Below, piece after piece: positions 2,686 to 64,000 of a stretch of 64,000 nt of DNA. The notes under the pieces were generated by a model, which saw only the letters and a list, made by a program, of their open reading frames with translations, did not search any database and was not told the origin of the DNA. Position numbers and translations under genes: made by a program. Where the stretch lies: the NCBI RefSeq assembly GCF_036785885.1, contig NC_092310.1:1054001-1118000 (forward strand), in the 5' to 3' direction. Source of the DNA: Coffea arabica. Lineage: Eukaryota > Streptophyta > Magnoliopsida > Gentianales > Rubiaceae. The first letter of the stretch is position 1; the number at the start of each line of letters is the position of its first letter.

Positions 2686-3133
2686 TTTATCTAACTAAAC
2701 TAAGTTATTCTTTTTTTTCCAAAGACATTAATCACTTAATTCTAAATGAATTTATTTAACTTGTGTGAAGTTGAAATTATTATATTTAGACAAATAATGT
2801 ATTATATTATTTTTTACTTTTATATTGTTTTAATTTATTTTAGGGCAAATTATTCAATTGGCCCTTTAACTCTTTGTCTAAGTAAAATTAAGCCCCTCAT
2901 CTATTTTTTGCTGACTTTAAGCCCTCGAACTTGTAAAATGGGGAACCCGTGGCCCTTTCAGCCAGTTTCTCCGGTTTTGCAACCGGATGACCAATTCACA
3001 CGAACGCAAGTGTGCTTCTTTCAAGGGTATTTTTGTCCTCACATTCTAAGCAAAAAGGGCGCACATAGTCCACCTTTCTATTTGATTTCCCTCACTCCCC
3101 TTACTCTTCCCTGCGCAACCCCCACGCAATCCC

Positions 3134-3342
3134 ATGGCCGTCTCTGTCGCCACCGCAGTAGCCGCGGCCGCCGCGGCCTCCCAGAAGCTCTCTCTGCTTA
3201 CAACCCCTCCTCATGACAAGCCCTTCTGCTCTTCCTTCTCAAAAACCCTCCTAAAACCCTGCCACCCCGTCACCACACCCGCAAAGTCCACTGGACCTGT
3301 GTCTCGGCCGCTTCCAAGAAGTCTTTCTTACCCTTGGAACAT
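3134..3342 (+). pseudogene. Captured fragment resembling a plastid transit peptide
   Basis: The plus-strand frame opens with MAVSVATAVAAAAAA and is rich in Ala, Ser, Thr and Pro with few acidic residues, as in chloroplast transit peptides. It runs head-on into the minus-strand kinase fragment at about 3340. The parent gene is not recognised. Its presence beside a fragment in the opposite orientation fits a Pack-MULE that captured pieces of two genes. Confidence 0.35.
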
Positions 3343-4074
3343 GATCCAGCGATCGCATCCCAGTGCAAGCCGGAGTTACAGAAGCACCTCCAGACCCCAC
3401 TGTTCGAATTTGGGTCGAGTCCACAGGTGGATTCCGAGTCACAATCCATTTGTTTCCGGCAAATGGGTTCACTAGGCGAAACCCACTGCAACTCCAGGCC
3501 AGGCTGCGGCCACCTACTCACGGGCAACGAGTAATCCAAGTTGACAAAAGCCCGGTACGCCCGGCAACCCGCATCCCTCACCCGAATGGAATAAGAAGTC
3601 GCCGACCCGCCCGCCCTGAACGTGCAGCATATCTCCGAATTCTCACAAGCGCCGCCATCGCTGACACTCCTGGTCCCGTTGATAAACGTATGACAGAGAC
3701 TGCTTGAGGTACAATTTAAAGGAGAGATCAACAGAGTCTGGGTACAATTGAGGTACAAGATGGTGTTGCTGTTGGTGATGTTGAAAGGCAAGGAAGGGGG
3801 AGGGTTGAATGGTGAGACGCTGGAGTTGAGGGGAAACGGAGGTGACCGGGTAGGTGTTGTTTAAGGTGTCGAATAAAAGTGAGCCGGCGCTGCAGCGGAG
3901 CTTGTAGAGTTGGTCGCCGCAGGTGGGCCTGATGCTTAGTGGGTAGGGAACCGGCGTGGCGCCGCAGTCCGGGCAACGCTGAGCGGAGAGTGTAGGCTTG
4001 GAGAATGTTACCAGAAGCAAGGTGCAGGTGGCCAGGAGGAGGAAGTGGTGGCGAGGGGCTGAAGAGATCGCCAT
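3343..4074 (-). pseudogene. Captured 5' fragment of a wall-associated receptor kinase-like gene
   Basis: The frame starts at ATG 4074 with a signal peptide (hydrophobic LLLATCTLLLVTF, residues about 11-23). A cysteine-rich extracellular domain of the GUB_WAK_bind type follows, with CPDCG, VPYPLS, CGDQLYKLRC and later CCTF and CFCNSGLHWD motifs. This resembles the ectodomain of WAKL15/20-type kinases (family knowledge from memory). One frame change lies near 3785-3800, at a run of Cs. The fragment stops after the WD-like CNSGLHWDAIAGSC segment, with no transmembrane helix or kinase domain. It sits wholly between the inverted repeats of the Pack-MULE, so it is a transduplicated fragment and not a working receptor. 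Confidence 0.8.
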
Positions 4075-4836
4075 TGAAAGAGAGGTATTGGTTGTGGATA
4101 AAGATGGGGTTGGATCCTTTTGTCTGATGTCTCATCTGAAGCCTAAGTCTTGCATCTTTGAGAATATTTATTTTTCTTTACCCAATTCAGTAGTTTTTGG
4201 GAAGTCCGTTTACGAGTCTAGGCGGGCATTTGGGGAAATTTTGGCCACTGTATTCCCCGTTGATTTCAAAGCCAGTGGAGGGAAGGTGGATTATGTGTGC
4301 CCTTTTTGCTTAGAATATGAGGACAAAAATGCCCTTGAAAGAACCACACTGGCATTCGTGTGAATTGGTTCTCCAGTTGCAAAACCGGAGAAACTGGCTG
4401 AAAGGGCCACGGGTTCCCCATTTTACAAGTTCGAGGGCTTAAAGTCAGCAAAAAATAGATGAGGGGCTTAATTTTACTTAGACAAAGAGTTAAAGGGTCA
4501 ATTGGATAATTTGCCCTTTATTTTATATTTGATTTAAGATAAAACACTTTTACGGTGTTTTAATTTATTTTAAATTTGATTTGTGATTATTTATTTAAAT
4601 TTTATTATTTGATTATGTAATTAGTCTTGTGTGAAATTAATTTTATTAAAAATTACAGCAGTAAATTAATAAATTAAAATTACTCGTCAATCCGAAATTT
4701 TCGAATTCGGGGTCAGATATCTTGACCCGTTTTGGGTTGACGGGTTAGATTCGAATCAACGAATTTTCTGATATACCCGGATCTCAACCCGACCCATCAA
4801 CCCGATTTAGACCCGATTGCCATCCCTAATGGTAGC

Positions 4837-39474: not shown

Positions 39475-42400
39475 TGTTATGACCCAATTCCAGAAATGAA
39501 GAAAAGAATTGAGGTGGGGGTTTAGGGAAGAGATTAAAGTCAGAAATTAGGGAGAATGAGAAAGGCTTATTGATTTCATCTTCCAGAATGAATCCGTAGT
39601 ACACGGGAGAAGCTTATTTATCAAGCTTCTAGTCACTTCCTATAACAGAATAACTACTTGCTACTCTAGTCGGTTGAGCTGTAACTTCTCCAACTATCCT
39701 ATGATATCAGAATATTGCCAAAACATAGCACTAATGGATTTATTATACAAGGCATAACATTGCCCCCCCTTAAGAATCCTATCCCCTACTCCCTAGGATT
39801 AAAATCTGGGAATTGTCCCTTGAGCACCGTCCAATCTTCCCATGTTGCTTCTGCAGGAGGCATGTTCACCCAATGCACCAGTACTTGAGTGATTGCAGAG
39901 TTTCCCCTCTTTATCATTCTTCTATCCAAGATGGCTTGAGGGGCCACCTTCACAGTGCCATCATCCATAACTTGAGGCAAACTACCACTCACGGATACAC
40001 CCTTAGCAGTCCTTTTCAACATAGATACATGGAATACCGGATGAATGAGAGCATCTGCCGGTAACTCCAGTTTGTAAGCTGCCGGTCCAATCTTCTGTAA
40101 AATTTTAAAAGGCCTATAGTATTTGGATGAAAGCTTCAGATTTCTTCTAAGTGCTATAGAGCTTTGTCTATATGGTTGAAGCTACAAGTACACCTTATCT
40201 CCTACTTCAAAACTTCTCTCCACCCTATGCTTATCTGCATTCTGCTTCATCCTATTCTGAGCTACCTCCAGATTTTCCTTCAACAGTCTATCCCAATCTT
40301 GTCTTTCCTTCACCCAATTTGCAGCAATTGAGGGGTTTTCTGCAGATGGCAACAAGCTAATTTGAGGGGGAGGATAACCATAAAGAGCCATGAAAGGAGT
40401 CATCTGTAAAGCCGAGTGGTAATTGGTGTTATACCACCACTCAGCTGCAGTCAACCATTGTCTCCATTTGGTGGGCTGCTGGAAGGTCATGCACCTTAGA
40501 TAGGTCTCTAAGCACCTATTCAATCTTTCTGTCTGTCCATCAGATTGTGGATGGTAAGCAGATGATAAGCATAACTCGGTACCCACTTTTGAGAATAAGT
40601 CCTGCCAAAAAGCACTGGTAAAAACCTTGTCTCTATCTGAGACTATGCTAAGAGGTAGGCCATGTAATCTGTAAACATGATCAAAGAAGAGCTGAGCTAC
40701 ATCTTGAGCTGTGTAATTGCTAGTAAGGGATATGAAATGTCCATATTTGGAGAATCTGTCAATGACCACCAGAATGGTGTCATGCCCATGGTTTAAAGTC
40801 ACGGTCGCGGTCACGGGCACGGCCCGGAACGTTCCACATCGGTCTCGGCATATCAGTCGCGGTTTCGGTGAGACGCAAATTTTAAAGTATTTAATCTTCT
40901 AAAAATTGTTAATAATATAAAAAAGTAGGCTAAATAAAAATAATTAAAAAATAGCAAAAGAAATAGCCAAGTCAATCCGTCGCGGTGTGACTCGGCTGAT
41001 TTCTCGTCTTGACTCGGGATAACTCGGTGTGACTCGGCCGAGTCAATCCGTCGCGGTGACGACTCGGCCGATTTCTCGGCGAGTCAAGTATTTCGGTATC
41101 GTTTCGTCACGGTATCGCATCGGTAGGGGCCGAGACGGTGACGACTCGGCCGAGTCGTCTCGGTCTCGGCCGAGACTTCGAACCATGGTCATGCCCCTTA
41201 GATTTGGGAAGTCCTTCTATAAAATCCAGGGAAATATGCTGCCACGCTTGTTCAGGTATTAGTAAGGGATGTAGTAGTCCCAGATATTTTCCTGACTCTG
41301 CTTTACTCCTTTTACAAGTATCACAGGCCTGCACCATTTGTTCCACATCTCTTTTCATTCCTGGCCAGTAAAAATACAGCTTCATTCTATGATAGGTGCC
41401 ACTATTACCGGAATGACCACCAACTGGAGAATCATGCATGCATTCCATCAGCTTCCTCCTCAGATCAGTAGCATTCCCCACAAAAATTCTACCCTTGAAC
41501 TTGATGATACCATGATCATAAGTATAATCTGTCGAAGAGACTCCATTAGTGGACAGATTTAGCAATAGTTCCTTAGCATTAGCATCTCCATTGTAGCTCT
41601 GAGTAACTTCCTGGAGCCATGCAGGCCTCACTACTGATATTGCATTCAATTCAATTTGCTCATTTTCACCCCTTCTTGACAAGGCATCAGCAACAATATT
41701 TTCCCTTCCCCTCCTGTACTGAATCTCATAATCCATTCCCATCAGTTTAGAGAGCCATTTTTGTTGTAAGGGAGTAGTGATTCTCTGGTCTAGCACATAT
41801 TTGAGACTTTCATGGTCCGTCTTAATGATAAAATGTGCTCCCATCAAATAATGCCTCCATTTGGTCACTGCAACAATTAGGGACAGCAACTCCTTCTCAT
41901 ATATTCACATCCCAAGATTTTTATTTGCTAGTACCTGACTCATATATGCTATTGGTCTTCCTTGTTGCATCAACACAGCTCCTAGAGCTTTTTGGCTGGC
42001 ATCAGTCTCTAGGATGAAAGGTTTAGTAAAATCCGGTAATGCTAATACAGGGGTAGAACTCATGGCACATTTCAACTGGCAGAAAGCATTCTTAGCTTCG
42101 GTACTCCACTCAAAGGAATCTTTCTTTAACAAATCAGTCAAAGGTTTAGCTATCAACCCATAGCCCTTAACAAACCTTCGATAATACCCGGTCAACCCAA
42201 GAAAACCCCTTAATGCTTTGACAGAATCAGGTCGTGGCCAGGATACCATGCTCTCTACCTTTGTAGGATCAGTTACTACTCCATCCTTGGTGACGATGTG
42301 TCCCAAGTACTCAACCTGTGGCTGACCAAAAGTGCATTTGGAGAGTTTGGCATAAAGTTTATGATATCTGAGAGTGTCCAGAACTTGTTTAAGGTGAATA

Positions 42401-45011
42401 AGATAGGTAGTCAAATCTGGGCTATATACTAAAATATCATCAAAGAAGACTAATACGAATTTTCTGAGGAAAGGGCTAAAAATTGAATTCATGAGTGCTT
42501 GAAAGGTTGTCGGGGCATTAGTAAGCCCAAATGGCATAACAAGGAATTCAAACAATCCAGTGTGAGTTCGAAAGGCTGTTTTGGGTATATCATGGGGATG
42601 CATTCTGATCTGGTGATAACTAGATCTGAGATCAATTTTGGAAAATACTTTGGAACCATGGAGCTCGTCCAAGAGATCATCAATGATAGGGATGGGAAAT
42701 TTGTCCTTAATGGTGATTTCATTTAACTGTCTATAATCAATACAAAACCTCCAGGTTTCATCTTTTTTTTAACTAGCAAGACAGGTGAAGCGAAAGGGCT
42801 ATGACTAAGCTGAATAATGCCATTAACTAGCATTTCCTGAACTTGTTTTTCAATTTCATTCTTATGAGTATGGGAATATCTATAAGGAATCAACTTGAAA
42901 GGTTTAGAATCTGGCTTAAGGGGTATCTTGTGATCTAATTGTCTAACAGGGGGTAAGGTGGAAGGTTCTCCAAACACATCAGTATAATCAGCCAAGAGTG
43001 CACTTATGGAGTCATCAGTGTGAGATGTTACCTCAGGAGTATCAACTGCTAGAACACAGGGCCTGCGGGAGAGTTTCTTTCTTCTTCCGTCTCAGAAACT
43101 TTTGGACAGTTTTTCCCTTCCTCAGTTTGATGTCTGTCTCTCTCAAATCTCCTTGTAGCTTCACTTCCTGCCCTCCTTGATTAAAGGAGAATTGTAGATG
43201 CTTGAAATCAAAAGTTACAGGACTGTGCTCTCTCATCCAATCGACCCCCAATACCATATCGTACGGCTCAATTGCAAGCACATATGCATCATGAGTGAAT
43301 GTATGCCCTTGCATTTCCCAGGTCATCCGTGGAACCCAGCTATTACACTGTAGCACCTGCCCATTAGCCACCTTGACTGCGAACAGTTTCCTTGGTACTA
43401 CTAATTGAGGATTTTCCTCGAACACTGAAGCTTTAACAAAAGTGTGAGAACTTCCTCCATCCAAAAATATTGAGAGCGGTTTCCCATTAAATTTCCCCTT
43501 CAGTTTGATAGTGCCCTGCAGCAGTTCACCAGTCATAGAGTGGATGGAAAATTCTACATCTTTATGACTACTGGCCCACTATATTCTATCACTTCCCCTT
43601 CGGTCAAGATTGATTCCTCCAATTTCCCTTTGTCTTCATCATCAACGAGTAACATGTGGATCCCCTTCCTACTACATACATGCCCGGGCCCATATCTATC
43701 CCCACATTTGAAGTACAAATTATTGGCCTTTCTGTACTGCAATTCTGATGGGGATATTTTCTGGAACATAGAGATCCCCCTCTTTTACTACTCTCGGCTC
43801 CTTCGAGAGCATGATTAACTCTAGGTGAAGGCAGAGCGAAGCTCTTGGGAGCCATCTTCTGTTTCTTGGTGAATAATTCAAAGGTCTTTTCCTGCATTCT
43901 CGCTGTCTCAAAGGCATCTAACAAAGTTCTTGTGCATTTTGACGGATATCTTGAGCTCTTCAGATAACCCACTCAAGAAGCAAGAGATAAAGAAAGGTTC
44001 TGTAAGTCCTGGGGTCTTGATCAAAACTCTAGCCTTGAGCTCTTCGAATTTCTCCTGATACGTTAAAATGGTGGAGGTTTGCTGCAATTTACTGAACTCT
44101 TCTACTGCATCATCTTGTCCCACTTCTCCAAATCTCTTTATGAGTGCTTCTTCAAACTCAGGCCAAGAAAGCTTACTTAGACCCATCTTGAACCCTTGAA
44201 ACCATATATCTGCCTTATCCTCTAAATGCATTTCTATCACATCGAACCATTGTTCCTCTGCCACATGATATATATGAAAATATTTGATACATTTCCTCAG
44301 CCATTCTCGGGGATTTCCCCCTCTGAACAGAGGAAATTCCACCTTAGGAACAGGGGCGTGAAAATTCTTCCTTACTCCACGTTCTTGATGAGGCTCGTCC
44401 AACCAAATTACGTTCCGATTACCCGATCGATTTGGAGACTTCTCTGCGTTACTGCCGGGACCCAAAATTCCCTTATCTCCATTGATGGTTCGCATGAGAT
44501 TGCCATATTGAGTAGACACAGTTGCTACTAGGGTCTTCAATTCTGCAGTGATAGTCTCCAGTCGTTCATCAGTCTGCTTCCTATTCAAAAGAGAATCTTC
44601 AATGAATTCCTGCAGTTTGTTCTCTTGACGTTTGATCTGTTCCTCCAGAGCTTTGAATCTTGTACCTTCGGCCATGATGGGCAATCAAAAGCTACTGAAT
44701 CCGAGGATCAGTAGCTCTGATACCAAATGTTATGACCCGATTCCAGAAATGAAGAAAAGAATTGAGGTGGGGTTTAGGGAAGAGAGAAAAGTCAGAAATT
44801 AGGGAGCATGAGAAAGGCTTATTGATTTCATCTTCCAGAATGAATCCGTAATACATGGGAGAAGCTTATTTATCAAGCTTCTAGTCACTTCCTGTAACAG
44901 AATAACTACTTGCTACTCTAGTCGGTTGAGCTGTAACTTCTCCAACTATCCTATGATATGAGAATACCGCCAAAACATAGCACTAATGGATTTATTATAC
45001 AAGGCATAACA
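39475..45011 (-). mobile_element. Ty3/gypsy chromovirus LTR retrotransposon, U1 copy (broken)
   Basis: Fossil element of 5.5 kb. The LTRs are 39475-39759 and 44728-45011 (TGTTATG...CATAACA), with the 5-bp target duplication atttt (39470-39474 and 45012-45016). A primer-binding site of tRNA-Met type lies at 44714-44725, and a purine tract abuts the other LTR. Parts in minus-strand order are gag (about 43.9-44.7 kb), a CCHC knuckle (about 43.7), protease (43.0-43.5), reverse transcriptase (42.1-43.0), RNase H (41.6-42.1), integrase (40.2-41.6) and a chromodomain (39.8-40.0). The coding region is interrupted roughly five to eight times, including by a MITE. The LTRs differ by about ten substitutions in 284 bp, which suggests insertion on the order of 1-1.5 million years ago at commonly used plant rates. 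Size and short LTRs recall Reina-type chromoviruses. Confidence 0.93.
40787..41187. mobile_element. CGG-rich MITE inserted in the chromovirus
   Basis: The ends are catggtttaaagtcacgg and the near complement ccgagacttcgaaccatg. The flanking gtcatgcc at 40779-40786 and 41188-41195 is an 8-bp target duplication (9 bp if a shared c is counted). The interior is packed with CTCGGCCGAGTC-like motifs. A TIR element of the hAT or Mutator kind is likely. It lies in the integrase part of the host element and has no coding frame. Confidence 0.8.
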
Positions 45012-62856: not shown

Positions 62857-64000
62857 TGTTATGACCCAATTCCAGAAATGAAGAAAAGAATTGAGGTGGG
62901 GTTTAGGGAAGAGATTAAAGTCAGAAATTAGGGAGAATGAGAAAGGCTTATTGATTTCATCTTCCAGAATGAATCCGTAGTACACGGGAGAAGCTTATTT
63001 ATCAAGCTTCTAGTCACTTCCTATAACAGAATAACTACTTGCTACTCTAGTCGGTTGAGCTGTAACTTCTCCAACTATCCTATGATATCAGAATATTGCC
63101 AAAACATAGCACTAATGGATTTATTATACAAGGCATAACATTGCCCCCCTTAAGAATCCTAGCCCCTACTCCCTAGGATTAAAATCTGGGAATTGTCCCT
63201 TGAGCACCGTCCAATCTTCCCATGTTGCTTCTGCAGGAGGCATGTTCACCCAATGCACCAGTACTTGAGTGATTGCAGAGTTTCCCCTCTTTATCATTCT
63301 TCTATCCAAGATGGCTTGAGGGGCCACCTTCACAGTGCCATCATCCATAACTTGAGGCAAACTACCACTCACGGATACACCCTTAGCAGTCCTTTTCAAC
63401 ATAGATACATGGAATACCGGATGAATGAGAGCATCTGCCGGTAACTCCAGTTTGTAAGCTGCCGGTCCAATCTTCTGTAAAATTTTAAAAGGCCTATAGT
63501 ATTTGGATGAAAGCTTCAGATTTCTTCTAAGTGCTATAGAGCTTTGTCTATATGGTTGAAGCTACAAGTACACCTTATCTCCTACTTCAAAACTTCTCTC
63601 CACCCTATGCTTATCTGCATTCTGCTTCATCCTATTCTGAGCTACCTCCAGATTTTCCTTCAACAGTCTATCCCAATCTTGTCTTTCCTTCACCCAATTT
63701 GCAGCAATTGAGGGGTTTTCTGCAGATGGCAACAAGCTAATTTGAGGGGGAGGATAACCATAAAGAGCCATGAAAGGAGTCATCTGTAAAGCCGAGTGGT
63801 AATTGGTGTTATACCACCACTCAGCTGCAGTCAACCATTGTCTCCATTTGGTGGGCTGCTGGAAGGTCATGCATCTTAGATAGGTCTCTAAGCACCTATT
63901 CAATCTTTCTGTCTGTCCATCAGATTGTGGATGGTAAGCAGATGATAAGCATAACTCGGTACCCACTTTTGAGAATAAGTCCTGCCAAAAAGCACTGGTA
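62857..64000 (-). mobile_element. Ty3/gypsy chromovirus, U3 copy, cut by the window end
   Basis: Fossil element. The LTR is 62857-63140, with the left target copy atttt at 62852-62856. It then shows the chromodomain part (about 63.17-63.40 kb) and the C-terminal half of the integrase (about 63.56-64.0 kb). The junction with host DNA is at exactly the same base as in U1, so this is a duplicated copy of one insertion and not a second insertion event. The window stops before the place where the U1 copy carries a MITE. Confidence 0.92.

Follow-up and report, generated by a model that had tools for sequence, protein, structure and literature searches.

Positions 2843 to 4516 of the window, by which we mean the whole 64,000-nucleotide stretch of Coffea arabica DNA analysed here, are bounded by long inverted repeats and hold sequence that reads like host genes. 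The locus raises the question of what kind of element this is, where its cargo came from, in what order and by what route the parts were joined, and whether the product can affect the plant. A first-pass annotation had proposed a Pack-MULE in which a receptor-kinase piece and a transit-peptide-like fragment meet head-on. The element is a Pack-MULE, since it carries pieces of two host genes and both parents were found in the same genome, and the first part of that proposal is thereby borne out; the head-on arrangement is not, for the layout is a piece of a GPAT gene on the plus strand, exon 1 of a WAKL gene on the minus strand, and a second piece of GPAT on the plus strand. The features are as follows.

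2834 to 2842: left target-site duplication, TTTATTTTA, a perfect 9-mer.
2843 to 4516: Pack-MULE, Mutator-like and non-autonomous, taking GGGC...GCCC as its ends.
2843 to 3076, plus strand: left terminal inverted repeat of the MULE type, from the inverted-repeat comparison.
3060 to 3320, plus strand: captured 5' end of GPAT, with 5'UTR, start codon at 3134 and transit-peptide region; donors L018 (contig C4) and L023 (C3).
3315 to 3320: CAAGAA at the left GPAT/WAKL joint, common to both donors if a further, adjoining 7-bp loss from WAKL is allowed.
3321 to 4085, minus strand: captured WAKL exon 1, with start codon at 4074-4072, signal peptide (by eye), GUB_WAK_bind region and Cys-rich tail; donors L011 (C4) and L012 (C3).
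3643 to 4074, minus strand: open frame of 143 aa, made up of the signal peptide, the GUB_WAK_bind match and an out-of-frame tail, of equal length in all three copies.
3791 to 3796: CTTCCT repeat at a 59-bp deletion that shifts the WAKL frame.
4082 to 4085: GAGG at the right joint, 4 bp common to WAKL (C3 donor) and GPAT.
4082 to 4265, plus strand: second captured GPAT piece, internal coding sequence on the same strand as the first, from comparison with the donors.
4266 to 4282, plus strand: filler of 17 bp between GPAT and the right repeat, present with small differences in six of the seven sister elements printed.
4283 to 4516, minus strand: right terminal inverted repeat, from the inverted-repeat comparison.
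4517 to 4525: right target-site duplication, TTTATTTTA, a perfect 9-mer.

The ends had been read correctly in the first-pass annotation: the inverted repeats pair 2842-3076 with 4283-4517 over 235 nt at 95% complementarity (234 bp with the ends at GGGC...GCCC), and the same perfect 9-mer stands at both 2834-2842 and 4517-4525. This pairing is not due to chance, because a 30-base pattern of the repeat start (two positions two-way, at most three mismatches) matched 168 + 167 = 335 places in the searched genome of 1.198 Gb, where the element lies on contig C1, and the backward control matched 0 + 0. Between the repeats, five open frames compared with Pfam gave no match to a transposase, only GUB_WAK_bind rising above its cut-off, and the whole interior is accounted for by GPAT, WAKL and the filler. 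An autonomous element with a gene of its own, the contrary outcome named at the start and looked for here, is ruled out, because the interior consists of pieces of host genes whose parents lie elsewhere in the genome. The interior had also been called GC-rich, which holds for the GPAT 5' piece and the WAKL piece (G+C 0.594 and 0.557, against 0.353 for the whole window) but not for the second GPAT piece (0.413).

Several other features lie in the window. Directly upstream, at 1404-2685, is a second MULE-like element. Its inverted repeats, about 210 nt long, are 87% complementary, TTTATCTAA stands on either side of it (1395-1403 and 2686-2694), and stretches related to its interior occur at many genomic places. 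On the minus strand between 10519 and 61516, nine similar frames of 194-282 aa resemble germin-like proteins by eye, and a Gypsy-like retroelement, again by eye, occupies about 39786-44684, with a piece of a second at 63166-63561.

The genome search that had been proposed for parental genes found GPAT and WAKL loci, both on C4 and C3. Two GPAT genes are full (L018 on C4 and L023 on C3), and the remaining 32 matches fall at 15 loci including the window. The parent of the GPAT pieces is plastid amidophosphoribosyltransferase (GPAT/PurF), a purine-making enzyme: L018 scored 508.7 bits against the PurF model TIGR01134 (cut-off 350), and of the solved structures its best relative is 6lbp, Amidophosphoribosyltransferase 2, chloroplastic (the domain scan of L023 was with Pfam only). 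In the gene, G+C is 0.612 over the first 250 bp and 0.44 over the last 500. The first 17 bases of the GPAT piece at 3060-3320 overlap the inner end of the repeat, where 10 bp (ACATAGTCCA) are common with the C3 donor. An Ala/Ser/Thr-rich plus-strand reading from 3134, noted earlier, is present and is the transit-peptide region of GPAT, but it is GPAT only to about 3320 and antisense WAKL beyond. The second GPAT piece had been missed; with the filler it takes up the space from the WAKL start codon to the right repeat, which rules out a WAKL 5' flank reaching that repeat, as the first-pass outline implied.

Full-length WAKL exon 1 was found by the genome search at L011 (C4) and L012 (C3), which are 99-100% identical to each other, and other relatives are more distant (at most 49%). 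Downstream of exon 1 in L011 is a kinase-domain frame of 153.6 bits, and the name WAKL is based on this domain combined with scores for the GUB_WAK_bind region, which in the donors (28.0 in L011, 28.8 in L012) fall just below the 29.4 cut-off of PF13947 and in the element's minus-strand reading reach 31.6 bits. The signal peptide and cysteine domain reported earlier on the minus strand are thus present, the peptide by eye, in a frame that breaks at about 3791-3796 through the 59-bp deletion. WAKL exon 1 is GC-richer than the kinase exon (0.564 against 0.448). The kinase exon of the C3 parent is split over two frames (L012 865-1973) and that of the C4 parent is one frame, so one WAKL homeolog may be decaying.

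The description of the cargo as a receptor-kinase piece with its start codon stands as regards the start codon; no kinase domain was matched in the scanned frames of the element, and because the piece lacks 59 bp present in the donors and is therefore frame-shifted, it makes no receptor. It is most likely that the plant gets no useful product from the cargo.

An effect through RNA is a separate matter; Pack-MULEs are commonly transcribed or a source of small RNA, though neither is required of them. Because WAKL and GPAT run in opposite directions within the element, a transcript from either end would be antisense to one parent, and read-through RNA might yield antisense or small RNAs by which the expression of both parents is reduced. 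In principle the element could silence in trans, because 406 of the 740 21-mers of the WAKL piece are identical to the C4 parent (356 of 740 for C3; with 24-mers, 366 of 737 and 316 of 737), but the GPAT pieces share fewer 21-mers with their C4 donor (71 of 224 and 36 of 164). We consider it rather unlikely that such regulation operates; silencing of WAKL or GPAT in this way would be the most plausible effect on the host. Pack-MULEs are among the captured-gene elements described as siRNA reservoirs of maize in the portion of a review cited here (PMC13317346).

Whatever its effect, the chimera has moved. At least three full copies exist, on C1, C17 and C3, with pairwise differences of 9, 12 and 10 in 1676 positions (99.3-99.5% alike), and the two copies outside the window have perfect 9-bp duplications of their own, TTATAAAAA and TTTGCAATA, so that all three of three are perfectly flanked. 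Because the copies are near-identical and each lies within its own duplication, the chimera was mobile as a unit after the second capture and reached at least three places. A source of transposase is suggested by the related repeats of other elements. Among the matches listed, repeat starts are found repeatedly in pairs with a spacing of about 6 kb, and two such elements (L036 and L037, 6124 and 6148 bp) have perfect 9-bp duplications and repeats 86-89% like those of the chimera; their frames contain DBD_Tnp_Mut, MULE and SWIM domains of the MuDR type, and each of the two elements has an in-frame stop. Presumably the transposase of related MuDR-type elements moved the chimera.

The order of the two captures can be read from sister elements. 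Among 15 inspected element loci that carry GPAT, three have WAKL (the window, L009 and L010) and 12 do not; copy numbers here are lower bounds, as the genome search scored the best 40 candidates. These 12 are not all separate insertions, since L016 and L017 have both flanks in common and L025, which is truncated at its right end, has one in common with L026. At eight of the 12 the outer limits of GPAT lie near those of the chimera and the inner limits differ: in offsets on GPAT_C3, they are 463 and 1153 in the chimera, 692 and 1144 in L015, L021, L025, L026 and L027, 692 and 1150 in L022, 783 and 1088 in L028, and 651 and 1202 in L024. In L016, L017 and L019 the second piece of GPAT is a short, diverged one (about 76%), and L020 lacks it altogether. 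L025 and L026 hold about 700 bp of extra insert between their GPAT pieces.

Since 12 of the 15 loci have GPAT without WAKL, the simplest order would be that GPAT was captured first, in a single piece of about 1.1 kb, and that WAKL later replaced its middle. From its C4 donors the window copy differs at 10 of 244 and 9 of 184 positions in the GPAT pieces (19 of 428 in total) and at 22 of 760 in WAKL, a weak sign that agrees with this order in direction only and on which we do not rely. At the donors L011, L012, L018 and L023 (8 kb each), the inverted repeats found no match beyond the captured GPAT stretch. A tree of 13 of the 15 loci (without L017 and L025; L026 omitted from the first part, its piece being interrupted, and L020 without the second piece) placed the three chimera copies in one clade with support of 100, and their closest sister is poorly resolved, with neighbouring supports of 14-68. 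In the same tree L024 groups with the C4 GPAT gene and not with the other elements (support for the split 81), and neither the filler nor the right-joint anchors were found in it; there may have been a separate GPAT capture at L024.

The joints bear on how the WAKL piece came in. At the left, CAAGAA can be read as shared by both donors, followed in the element, as in WAKL, by GTC; six shared bases occur in random joints at a frequency of 0.0016, a figure valid for this reading only. The alternative is a plain joint with one extra base at 3321 and nothing shared. At the right joint, where GAGG is shared, random joints between these sequences reach four or more shared bases at a frequency of 0.017, and random 59-bp deletions in WAKL exon 1 reach six repeated bases, as at CTTCCT, at 0.010. 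Repair with template switching, as in animal Pack-TIRs, is the likeliest process that would fit these joints, and the joining of loose fragments could look alike. The WAKL piece apparently extends into the start of intron 1, the splice site being inferred, which argues for a DNA source. An 86-bp gap in the RING cargo of sister elements, described below, sits within the unbroken reading frame of the donor and so looks like a deletion and not an intron; for both reasons capture from spliced RNA is disfavoured.

Taken together, we consider it very probable that this non-autonomous Pack-MULE was built stepwise, by uptake of GPAT, losses from its middle, replacement by WAKL and amplification as a unit. 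A MULE would first have taken up about 1.1 kb of genomic GPAT, as the shared outer limits suggest, and copies then lost different parts of the middle, as is seen in the sister elements. In one copy the middle was replaced by about 0.8 kb of inverted WAKL sequence, made up of exon 1 and the first part of the intron; the order and the donor gene are observed here, and the likeliest route would be that a break or gap within the element was repaired by copying from the donor, the template being switched where short sequences were shared. The 59-bp loss at the repeated CTTCCT, which breaks the frame, would have come during or after the entry of WAKL. The chimera then moved to at least three places, as observed, probably by means of the transposase of related MuDR-type elements, to which its repeats point.

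The WAKL piece might instead have entered by insertion of, or recombination with, another transposon that already carried it, and not by copying from the gene. WAKL exon 1 was captured more than once, because L013 (3310-4563) and L014 (3457-4758) are a separate element type with inverted repeats of 121-145 bp and their own WAKL exon-1 piece, and four further sites hold 112 bp of that region at 98-100% (L029 1185-1296, L030 1219-1330, L031 1242-1353 and L032 1224-1335). But L013 and L014 match element positions 481-815 only, where the chimera holds 481-1244, they have no match to the repeats of the chimera family, and they are closer to the donor WAKL_C4 (4 and 5 differences in 335) than to the window copy (9 and 10). 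As a source of the WAKL piece these elements are therefore disfavoured, and entry by way of any such transposon seems very unlikely beside copying from the gene. In L029 and L030 the 112-bp piece lies near a frame that reads by eye like a leucine-rich-repeat fragment, for which no Pfam match was found in L029, and no clear long inverted repeats were found at L029-L032.

That the chimera is instead a functional new gene, giving a secreted 143-aa protein that interferes with the parent receptor or a plastid-targeted peptide from the plus frame, is hardly credible: the minus frame is open in all three copies and keeps its signal-peptide-like start, but it is out of register after the 59-bp deletion, the copies differ by less than 1%, which is too little for an open frame to imply selection, the plus-strand frame varies in length (113 aa in two of the copies but 133 aa in the other), and nonsynonymous to synonymous differences from WAKL_C4 of 12:7, 10:6 and 13:6, set against 3.14:1 for random change, say nothing on selection on the element because they include the donor's own branch.

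Under the stepwise origin that we prefer, WAKL need not be the only second cargo, and other sister elements hold different ones. In one subfamily, with a length of about 1585 bp, about the first 88 bases are all that is left of the GPAT-like sequence, and the cargo is part of a gene for a RING-type protein, with at least 10 full-length matches to this cargo and partial ones besides; copies outside the elements lie on C7 and C8, the former (L038) with an unbroken 437-aa frame and a RING domain. In L016, L017 and L019 the cargo comes from a CAP/PR-1 gene, of which outside copies lie on C12 (L040, a CAP frame of 220 aa) and C11, and the cargo of L020 is sequence without assigned identity that matches C16 (L039) and C15. 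At the outside copies L038, L040 and L039 no match to the repeats was found. These elements allow the proposal, which we hold with slightly more doubt than belief, that one Pack-MULE lineage has served as a chassis for at least four independent second captures (WAKL, RING, CAP/PR-1 and the unassigned sequence) by template-switching repair after GPAT was in place.

In its long inverted repeats, 9-bp duplications, small size and want of a visible transposase, and in carrying host-gene pieces that include a GC-rich 5' end, the Coffea element is like the Pack-MULEs of rice, maize, Arabidopsis and tomato. Early work in rice reportedly found that Pack-MULEs can hold pieces of several genes. What distinguishes the present family is that a single genome still shows the founding capture, derivatives of it with deletions, four different second cargoes, and copies of all five cargoes outside the elements. 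Among the papers listed by a literature search on Pack-MULE together with the gene names, none contains the word Pack-MULE, and no earlier description of this family was found there.

Beyond grasses, a table in PMC3310237 gives 46 Pack-MULEs for Arabidopsis and 220 for tomato, and a preference for GC-rich sequence has been reported in Oryza, in the part of PMC4858842 cited here. The tomato family PM-ZIBP, as described in the relevant part of PMC3310237, is like the Coffea family a multi-copy eudicot Pack-MULE family with an identified parent gene; its cargo is a piece of a single gene and its members differ in tandem repeats at the ends, whereas the Coffea family varies by swaps of internal cargo. 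How MULEs acquire sequence was described in that paper (2012) as yet to be understood. For animal Pack-TIRs, the sections of PMC8277862 (2021) used here set out gap-filling and FoSTeST models in which, as here, short shared sequence lies at the breakpoints and transposition then amplifies the product; 190 Pack-TIRs (67.6%) had short shared sequence at one or more breakpoints, and applicability of the models to plant Pack-MULEs was called 'worth exploring'. The present case differs in being a plant MULE and in that one of its two joints is ambiguous.

Because this one plant genome retains parents, one-gene intermediates and two-gene products side by side, the order of capture and the joints can be read. 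If the proposal of a chassis with successive second captures is true, the family would be a series of ordered captures in a plant, against which the repair models for animal Pack-TIRs could be tested base by base. The family also shows that a MULE can exchange part of its cargo after it has formed, so that snapshots of single Pack-MULEs may hide earlier cargo.
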